A stretch of DNA of 44,855 bases, from NCBI GenBank assembly GCA_900315065.1, contig OMXQ01000007.1, forward strand, positions 1 through 44,855, written 5' to 3'. This DNA comes from an uncultured Erysipelotrichaceae bacterium. GTDB lineage: Bacteria; Bacillota_I; Bacilli_A; Erysipelotrichales; Erysipelotrichaceae. Below are positions 23,287 through 25,007 of this stretch, one piece after another. The stretch's first letter is position 1. Every line of letters starts with the position of its first letter. A program made the position numbers and the translations under genes. Under the pieces are notes generated by a model that worked only from the letters and a program-made list of their open reading frames with translations, was not told the DNA's origin and did no database searches.

Positions 23287-23562
23287 CTAGTGTAAATTCT
23301 GTGTATTGCCCCAGAAGGAGCTGCCGGCTTTGGAAAAATCATTGAGGATCATGATCGGAATCCTGTCAAACTTCGGATTTTCTTTCTTCAGTGCGGCACA
23401 GGCACTTAGTCTTCTATTTCCATCTACGCATTCATAATAGCCGTCCCTGGCCTTGACCTGAACAGGAATGGCGACGCCTCTTTTACGGATGGATTCCAGT
23501 AAGTCCCCGGGATCTTTTGTTTGATAGTGAATTTCTTCCAGGGTAACAATGGTATTAATCAT
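23287..23562 (-). CDS. Standalone ParB/sulfiredoxin-like domain protein (91 aa)
   Basis: The protein is little more than a ParB N-terminal-type domain: LLESIRKRGVAIPVQVKARD at about 24-43 and YYECVDGNRRLSACAALKKE at about 45-64, the latter being the GxRR-type nucleotide-binding box. It lacks the helix-turn-helix and dimerisation parts of chromosome-partitioning ParB. A role in segregation is unlikely; similar minimal domains bind nucleotides such as CTP or ATP. I chose the ATG at 23562, behind AGAAGG; an upstream extension overlaps the promoter. It is co-transcribed with rluB from an extended -10 promoter. Function is unknown. Confidence 0.75.
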   Translation of the reverse strand: MINTIVTLEEIHYQTKDPGDLLESIRKRGVAIPVQVKARDGYYECVDGNRRLSACAALKKENPKFDRIPIMILNDFSKAGSSFWGNTQNLH

Positions 23563-23592
23563 TTCTTCTGCCTTCTTTTCAATAGCGGAACT

Positions 23593-23601
23593 ATTGTAAC
23601 A
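23593..23601 (-). promoter_or_regulatory. Extended -10 promoter of the ParB-like gene and rluB
   Basis: The minus strand reads TGTTACAAT, a TGn-extended -10 box, 31 bases before the start codon. No convincing -35 is seen. The same TGTTACAAT string occurs upstream of the tocopherol-cyclase-like gene. Confidence 0.6.
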
Positions 23602-23609
23602 TACTGAAA

Positions 23610-23641
23610 CAAAAACAGCAGTCATACTTTGACGACTGCTG
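23610..23641 (-). terminator. Terminator of the Nudix/C39-like pair
   Basis: CAGCAGTC and GACTGCTG (23616-23623, 23634-23641) form a perfect 8-bp stem followed by TTTTTG on the minus strand, immediately after the stop codon. Confidence 0.88.
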
Positions 23642-24508
23642 CTATTTCCAGATCAATGCTGCTCCAGGTACCATCGCAAATCTTTCCAGAAAACTCTCTG
23701 CCTTTTCTTCATGATCCTTCTTCCCATAAGCGGCATTATAGAAATGAAAGGTACCATTCTTCAGATTTTCATAAGCAACATAATGAGCACCTTGCGAATG
23801 AACATAGAGTAGTATGCCGCACTGGCTTTGTGCCATGGTCCTGGCAAGATTCTTTTTGAACTTATAGGTATAGTGACAAGGCACCTTCCGGTTCAGCCAG
23901 AGATACAGAGAACCGATCTCCTGGCCTGCAGCTTTTCCAAGTAATGAGTGCCGGCTGAGACTTTGTTCAATTTCCTGCATGTCGGTTTCTTTGCCAAGCA
24001 GGCGGAGAAAGTTGTATGCCGCGATCCAGCCGCATCCCTTGTCTCTGGTATTGAACCAGCCGAACGGAATCTTTTCCATCCTGCCCTGGTTGATGAGATA
24101 GCCTTCTTCATCAAAGCAGGCATCCGGCACAACAAACTTCCATGGTTCATAGATTTTCTGGAAAGCCTGTCCTTTTGGATAAAAACCGCAGCCGGAAAGA
24201 AGACGCCCGTATTGGCTGCCATCTTTCACGACGACTTTCTTTTCTCTTTCCTTGCGGAAGATATTTTCCAATAATCTCTGCACAAGATGAAGGGAAGACA
24301 AAGAAGCAGGATCCGTTAAATAGAGAGAAAGAAAAACTGTATCTTCTTCTCTTCGGTAAGCATAGACGCCGATTGCGTCTGCGTGATCAATGAGATAGCC
24401 GCTCTCCTTCTTCCCTTCAAAGAAAGAAGCCGGGAAATCTCTGGTCAGATCATACATATCCGCATAGCGGTCATTAGCTGCTTCTGAAAAGGATACCAGT
24501 CTTCTCAC
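23642..24508 (-). CDS. Fusion of a GNAT-like domain and a C39/papain-like cysteine peptidase domain
   Basis: The 288-aa protein appears to have two parts. Residues about 1-118 have the strand-helix pattern of a GNAT acetyltransferase, ending in the typical YGRLLSGCGFYPKG segment. Residues about 145-288 look like a papain-like/C39 domain: C159 in RDKGCGWIAAYNFLR, H242 in QGAHYVAYE, and N258 in FHFYNAAYG form a plausible Cys-His-Asn triad. There is no signal peptide or transporter, so it is not an ordinary bacteriocin-exporting C39 protein. It starts with GTG in a GTGA overlap with the Nudix gene, behind GAGGAAG. Function is unknown; deamidase, transglutaminase or peptidase are all possible. 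The domain calls are by eye. Confidence 0.7.
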   Translation of the reverse strand: MRRLVSFSEAANDRYADMYDLTRDFPASFFEGKKESGYLIDHADAIGVYAYRREEDTVFLSLYLTDPASLSSLHLVQRLLENIFRKEREKKVVVKDGSQYGRLLSGCGFYPKGQAFQKIYEPWKFVVPDACFDEEGYLINQGRMEKIPFGWFNTRDKGCGWIAAYNFLRLLGKETDMQEIEQSLSRHSLLGKAAGQEIGSLYLWLNRKVPCHYTYKFKKNLARTMAQSQCGILLYVHSQGAHYVAYENLKNGTFHFYNAAYGKKDHEEKAESFLERFAMVPGAALIWK

Positions 24509-24933
24509 ATTGCTTCCTCAGGATCGCTGTGAACCTTCAGGAATCTGGCTGCTTTCTTCAGAATAGCAGCGTCATTTTCATAAGTGACGGCCGGCAGAGC
24601 ACGGACATATTCAGCCCACTGCATATCCTGCAGCTCTTCCTTCTGGACCTTTTCCTTGCCGCCGATCGGACGGGCAAGGAAGTAAACAACTTCCTTGATG
24701 ACACCAGGTTCCGGAGAATAGCTTGTGACAGTCCTGAAACCATCCAGAATGGCAACATCCAGTCCTGTTTCTTCTCTGATTTCACGCAAAGCTGTTTCAG
24801 TTTCTGTTTCGTCTTTTTCAACATGGCCCTTCGGGAAGCACCAGTGTCCCTGTACCTGATGAATGACCAGAAACTCAGGTTTATCGTCTGTTATCCTGAA
24901 TACGACTGCACCGCATGATTTTTCCTTCTTCAT
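24505..24933 (-). CDS. Nudix hydrolase (diadenosine polyphosphate hydrolase type)
   Basis: The 142-aa protein has a complete Nudix box, GHVEKDETETETALREIREETGL at residues 36-58, with the metal-binding REIREE core at 50-55. The preceding WCFPKGH and the N-terminal CGAVVFR pattern fit bacterial Ap4A or NDP-sugar-cleaving Nudix enzymes. GAAAGGAG lies 9 bases before the ATG, and a TATAAT (24962-24967, minus) lies just upstream. It shares 4 bases with the downstream C39-like gene, so the two are translationally coupled and may share a nucleotide-linked substrate or signal. Confidence 0.88.
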   Translation of the reverse strand: MKKEKSCGAVVFRITDDKPEFLVIHQVQGHWCFPKGHVEKDETETETALREIREETGLDVAILDGFRTVTSYSPEPGVIKEVVYFLARPIGGKEKVQKEELQDMQWAEYVRALPAVTYENDAAILKKAARFLKVHSDPEEAM

Positions 24934-24981
24934 AAGCTGTTCTCCTTTCGATATATGGATAATTATAGCAATCTTTCATAG

Positions 24982-25007
24982 AAAAAGACGAAGTTTTGTC
25001 TTCGTCT
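24982..25007 (-). terminator. Terminator of the pepF-M42 peptidase unit
   Basis: AGACGAAG and CTTCGTCT (24986-24993, 25000-25007) form an 8-bp stem with a 6-base loop, followed by U5 on the minus strand, right after the M42 stop. Confidence 0.9.

Follow-up and report, generated by a model that had tools for sequence, protein, structure and literature searches.

A stretch of 44,855 nucleotides from an uncultured Erysipelotrichaceae bacterium (referred to throughout as the window) raises the question of what is done by a protein that joins a GNAT-shaped half to a papain-like half, and of whether it belongs with the Nudix hydrolase encoded directly ahead of it. Both genes lie on the reverse strand. 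The Nudix gene occupies positions 24505 to 24933 and encodes 142 residues; the second gene, at 23642 to 24508 with a GTG start and a TAG stop, encodes the 288-residue protein whose family is here called FAM. The two open reading frames, their strand and coordinates, and the GTGA (24508-24505, reverse strand) in which the Nudix stop overlaps the FAM start were all found to be as claimed by the initial annotation of this DNA.

Judging from signals in the DNA, the pair looks like a closed bicistronic unit in this genome, because it has an extended -10 to itself and is flanked by terminators on both sides. The putative extended -10, TGCTATAAT, lies 5' of the Nudix gene at 24962 to 24970 (reverse strand) and is one of 6 copies in the window against 1.25 expected. 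On the same strand, AAAGGAG precedes the Nudix ATG (24948-24942), and GAGGA at 24519-24515, six bases 5' of the GTG, is a possible ribosome-binding site of FAM. The predicted terminator hairpins, also on the reverse strand, are found 3' of the upstream M42 peptidase gene (24986 to 25007; -13 kcal/mol, z -4.2) and over the FAM stop, ahead of a ParB-like gene (23614 to 23643; -20.4 kcal/mol, z -5.7). Downstream of FAM, expression of the ParB-like and RluB genes seems to be independent of the pair in the window; in several relatives FAM reads straight on into the ParB-like gene. Neighbouring genes called RluB, NFACT, Gmk, M3_PepF and GH1 are so named, presumptively, from our own reading of their sequences.

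With regard to the location of the protein, a transporter and a signal peptide had both been said to be missing. The scanned window genes include no transporter closer than 6-8 kb, the nearest being an MFS gene (15.7-17.2 kb) and a set of amino-acid ABC genes (32.4-35.1 kb), and no signal-like N-terminal segment was seen in FAM when the sequence was judged by eye. A cytosolic site for the cysteine-enzyme domain, as first proposed, is likely.

No match to FAM was found in Pfam, NCBIfam or PADLOC, and PDB sequence searches with FAM and with two alignments of its relatives, A1 (38 of 53 long members, window included) and A3 (34 rows), gave either nothing or chance matches alone. For structural comparison, an AlphaFold2 model of the 288 residues was built from an alignment of 70 proteins, with a mean pLDDT of 93.2 and a pTM of 0.91. 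Both proposed folds were recovered, GNAT in residues 1-121 (24146 to 24508, reverse strand) and C39/papain in residues 135-288 (23645 to 24106, reverse strand). In VIA-align 2, absences from whose list carry no weight as evidence, the C-terminal half resembled the ComA peptidase 5xe9 (Z 12.2, 2.9 Å, 129 aligned) and the C39-like protein 3erv (Z 11.3); PeiR, a toxin/immunity pair and the ubiquitin clippase BpJOS were tied with these C39/papain-type matches.

Model and alignment together place Gln, Cys, His and Asn of a papain fold in order in FAM. A third alignment, A2, was made of 57 of 58 long members (window included; L139 was left out because its start is over-long) together with 13 of 19 proteins of the stand-alone kind, the open-ended reading frames L138, L147 and L149 being excluded. 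Here 70 of 70 rows share Q141, C159, H242 and N258, and likewise G136, G158, G160, W161, L205, G231 and Y235. The first alignment, with 53 of 53 long members, shows the same invariance of Q141, C159, H242 and N258. The cysteine, histidine and asparagine singled out by the initial annotation hold up, and an invariant glutamine joins them. In A3, the wider set, the His is invariant, as are three residues of GCGWIAAYN (Cys, Ile and Asn); L058-L060 have Ser where FAM has Asn258. The C39 family PF03412 was weakly matched by 10 of the 38 A1 members (best E 1.6e-5), the window protein having no match, and by 2 of 34 in A3 (best 0.011).

Compared with the C39 domains of ComA, PCAT1 and LahT and with 3erv, FAM 135-288 has the same fold (Z 11-12), Cys/His catalytic residues and a Gln ahead of them. 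It differs in its third residue, Asn in FAM and usually Asp in C39 proteins, in the weakness of the PF03412 match and in that no peptide precursor was noticed nearby. Unlike C39 exporters, it is not fused to an ABC transporter; the protein stops after the domain, and the nearest ABC gene found is about 8 kb off.

The N-terminal half follows the GNAT order beta-alpha-alpha-beta-beta-beta-alpha-beta-alpha-beta-beta in the AlphaFold2 model and aligned with the GNAT 5ix3 (Z 12.1, 2.6 Å, 118 aligned; VIA-align 2); the best Foldseek rows for the FAM model were likewise GNATs (E 4e-5). The acetyl-CoA loop of GNATs has the pattern Q/RxxGxG/A after beta4. A relaxed form, [QRK]xxGx[GA], was found in none of 57 members at residues 55-85, and the beta4-alpha3 loop, which lacks it throughout, has no conserved residue; six matches fell elsewhere in the N half, at other positions. 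The claim of a GNAT shape was correct as to fold, with the correction that this half, lacking the motif, is not a normal acetyltransferase. An absent loop motif does not prove that CoA binding has been lost.

Both halves of FAM are under purifying selection: in the 14 closest pairs (dS 0.12-0.65), dN/dS was 0.01-0.22 for the N half and 0.01-0.15 for the C half. A further 14 pairs (dS 0.73 to 1.2), with N-half ratios up to 1.85 among the 11 listed, were set aside as divergent and unreliable. Mean identity to the window protein is 45% in the C half and 19% in the N half, which, with the low dN/dS, marks the N half as fast-evolving but kept; because its identity is just 19%, its sequence gives no evident sign of a conserved binding role. 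The N half reads as a maintained pseudo-GNAT rather than a normal acetyltransferase, and these data support a probably active cysteine enzyme with a GNAT-shaped companion lacking the cofactor motif.

The partner gene was identified by PF00293 (E 7.5e-19), as had been claimed, and its best PDB relatives are CT771, the AP4A hydrolase 3i7u, the bis(5'-nucleosyl)-tetraphosphatase 3u53, Ndx1 and a diadenosine tetraphosphate hydrolase. By sequence kinship its product is a predicted Nudix of the NUDT2/Ap4A (ApnA-type) hydrolases, with which it shares the Nudix domain and these relatives and from which it differs by its overlap with FAM. There are eight NUDIX matches in this genome, one of them paired with FAM. 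A PADLOC match of the Nudix protein (PDC-S07, E 2.5e-11) was taken as a general Nudix match.

To what extent the two genes stay together was seen from 294 genomes of the order, 61 of which contain FAM. Most of these belong to the window's own genus, where 53 of 62 genomes (window included) are carriers. The two-half form also occurs in 3 genomes of genus g9; C-half-only proteins of 152-170 residues were found in 4 genomes (g22 and g28), and g35 gave one weak match inside a 946-residue frame. Within the own genus the Nudix gene lies directly upstream of FAM in 47 of the 53 carriers, with the 4-nt overlap in 23; leaving out the window, the figures are 46 of 52 and 22. For G134 and G225, where the longest FAM reading frame begins inside the Nudix gene, the gap figure is not real. 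The six exceptions are two at contig edges (G139 and G209) and four, G119, G176, G219 and G278, in which no Nudix match was found at 1e-10. Of the 53 genomes of the genus with FAM, 48 have Nudix, against 3 of the 9 that lack FAM (Fisher p 5e-4, kinship ignored), and in one of the latter (G140, L183) the Nudix and ParB-like genes are 69 nt apart with FAM absent.

The pairing in the own genus is beyond chance. In genus g9, by contrast, Nudix adjoins FAM in none of the 3 genomes; the expected adjacency, stable in the genus, did not extend to this one, and the coupling is a lineage trait. Since 47 of 53 stands against 0 of 3, and Nudix genes are scarce beside other relatives, co-expression is evidenced, and a general two-enzyme system is not. 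By neighbourhood, FAM has a rival partner in a probably secreted glucosaminidase, found at most 200 nt downstream in 27 of 57 rows, all 3 of g9 included (e.g. L046:3786-6503 and L064:1063-3912). A functional link was rejected: the glucosaminidase looks exported and FAM does not, and it is absent beside FAM in the window.

Outside the genus, a first contig scan with the single window protein as query gave no match. Using A1 instead, 136 relatives were retrieved and 79 loci kept, including 19 C-half-only proteins in Clostridia; in the order of G637, 15 of 394 genomes had a match at 1e-10, small stand-alone cysteine-domain proteins among them. Apart from the query genome, these 15 also include fusions of the domain. 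In L198 it forms the C-terminal part of a 499-residue protein, and in L199:683-1840 and L202:1498-2625 it accompanies what appear by eye to be multi-span membrane proteins, with CGP replacing CGW. L203:1-2004 is an RHS-repeat protein with the GCGWIA cysteine domain at its C-terminal tip, followed 16 nt downstream by a 176-residue gene product without a Pfam match.

Around 37 loci whose relatives stand alone or are fused differently, 40 close co-directional neighbours included, among the 25 families listed of 50, one Nudix, two GNATs and three response regulators, the rest being mixed. The Nudix is MTH1-like and lies directly upstream of a stand-alone relative that overlaps it (L160:2369-3432); one GNAT gene has a 4-nt overlap with another stand-alone relative (L170:5977-7061). 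Both cases are suggestive, and common gene families could give as much by chance. No partner shared among the clostridial neighbour clusters was found. A general Nudix/C39 system was rejected because this MTH1-like gene was the single Nudix among those 40 neighbours (25 families listed of 50). Phage or plasmid origin was likewise rejected, no relative having been found in viral contigs, in plasmids (window protein as query) or in phages (stand-alone relative as query).

The reading that we favour, at a rough probability of 0.45, is that FAM is a cytosolic C39/papain-fold cysteine hydrolase with a pseudo-GNAT half that recognises or positions the substrate, co-made with an ApnA-type Nudix. One promoter would serve both genes, with FAM produced by translational coupling. 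C159, H242 and N258 would form the triad, with Q141 as the oxyanion-hole residue, and the protein may cleave a peptide or amide bond. The N half, having kept the GNAT fold and lost the acetyl-CoA loop, would now act as a substrate-recognition or positioning domain; we infer this, and the hydrolase activity, from the fold and from the way conservation is divided between the halves. As either gene can be found where the other is missing, the Nudix protein would be a co-expressed helper rather than an obligate complex partner. It is a long shot that the two act one after the other on a single nucleotide-linked metabolite or tag, the Nudix splitting a dinucleotide or nucleotide-capped compound and FAM, with its pseudo-GNAT half as receptor for a nucleotide-like ligand, removing or transferring the acyl or peptidyl part by its cysteine. 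If true, this would be a previously undescribed cytosolic two-enzyme clearing system.

Papain folds also perform acyl transfer and deamidation. FAM could be an acyltransferase that passes an acyl or aminoacyl group from a C159 thioester to an amine, as BtrH and phytochelatin synthase do, its GNAT-shaped half binding a pantetheine-bearing donor in another way. The retained GNAT fold would suit this, as would PMC10318531, which calls BtrH, an acyltransferase of papain fold, a close relation of C39 and lists phytochelatin synthase beside it; with the CoA loop motif missing in 57 of 57 members and neither an acyl-carrier nor a biosynthetic gene in the annotated surroundings, however, we consider it unlikely. 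The same paper states, citing Iyer et al. 2009, that a GNAT domain is often found fused to DUF3335. FAM has these two kinds of domain in one chain and might be a diverged branch of such fusions, whose GNAT part has been suggested to be a peptide ligase; it differs from them in its degenerate GNAT without the CoA loop and in having a Nudix gene as partner. Against this, PF11814 (DUF3335) is missing from the 15 families listed for the 38 A1 members (E up to 10) and from those listed for the 34 A3 members, though in both sets HMMER filters could mask a weak kinship; it had no match in 11 relatives and one sub-threshold match across 245 genomes of the phylum. Many homologues also lack the N half, which suggests that the fusion arose within the FAM family. 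A branching from the DUF3335 fusions is quite improbable.

A further reading makes the cysteine domain part of a toxin, or a derivative of one, retained as a resident protein. It is brought to mind by the RHS tip of L203 and by VIA matches to a papain-like toxin/immunity pair (9l5u, Z 11.8, which we guess to be the Cpe1 toxin) and CdiA-CT (8ssm, Z 10.7). According to PMC12136450, Cpe1 is an interbacterial cysteine protease toxin that, like FAM, has a fold resembling ComA and LahT, and its family a Cys-His-Asp/Asn triad; toxins of this type travel with T6SS or CDI carriers. No carrier domain (Rhs, CdiA, PAAR, VgrG) was found in the window protein, most members of the genus retain FAM, and at one location, and the toxin fold matches are tied with C39 peptidases, so that a toxin origin appears very unlikely. 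Least of all would we expect a two-headed enzyme in which a working GNAT acetyltransferase accompanies the cysteine enzyme: a GNAT fold at Z about 12 and purifying selection speak for it, but the loop motif is found in 0 of 57 and the beta4-alpha3 loop is unconserved. A plain bifunctional acetyltransferase-protease was rejected for the absence of motif A.

The initial annotation had not recognised the combination as a described system. No description of a Nudix, GNAT and papain-like operon was found in the portions of the literature searched, and to this extent the claim stands; the fusion of GNAT and papain-like domains is, however, a published architecture (PMC10318531), and the combination here is a new variation on known parts. 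Taken by sequence, the cysteine domain defines what appears to be a conserved papain-fold family of Erysipelotrichaceae and Clostridia, with no Pfam or NCBIfam match above a weak level, that spans proteins standing alone, what look like membrane proteins and one or more Rhs tips. Its member in the window combines a GNAT domain, without the cofactor motif yet under selection, with a stable pairing to an Ap4A-type hydrolase gene. Its function is testable, since it is also carried by cultured bacteria such as Lactimicrobium massiliense (L141).

Two minor observations concern the surroundings of the pair. The small ParB-N-like protein (23287-23625, reverse strand), with a PF02195 match below the cut-off, lies between FAM and RluB in many relatives from the genus, and its true start is likely to be the ATG at 23562-23560, behind AAGAAGG. 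The six copies of the extended -10 TGNTATAAT (1.25 expected) are at 1175, 4036, 12748, 24962, 30959 and 43180, several of them close to gene starts.
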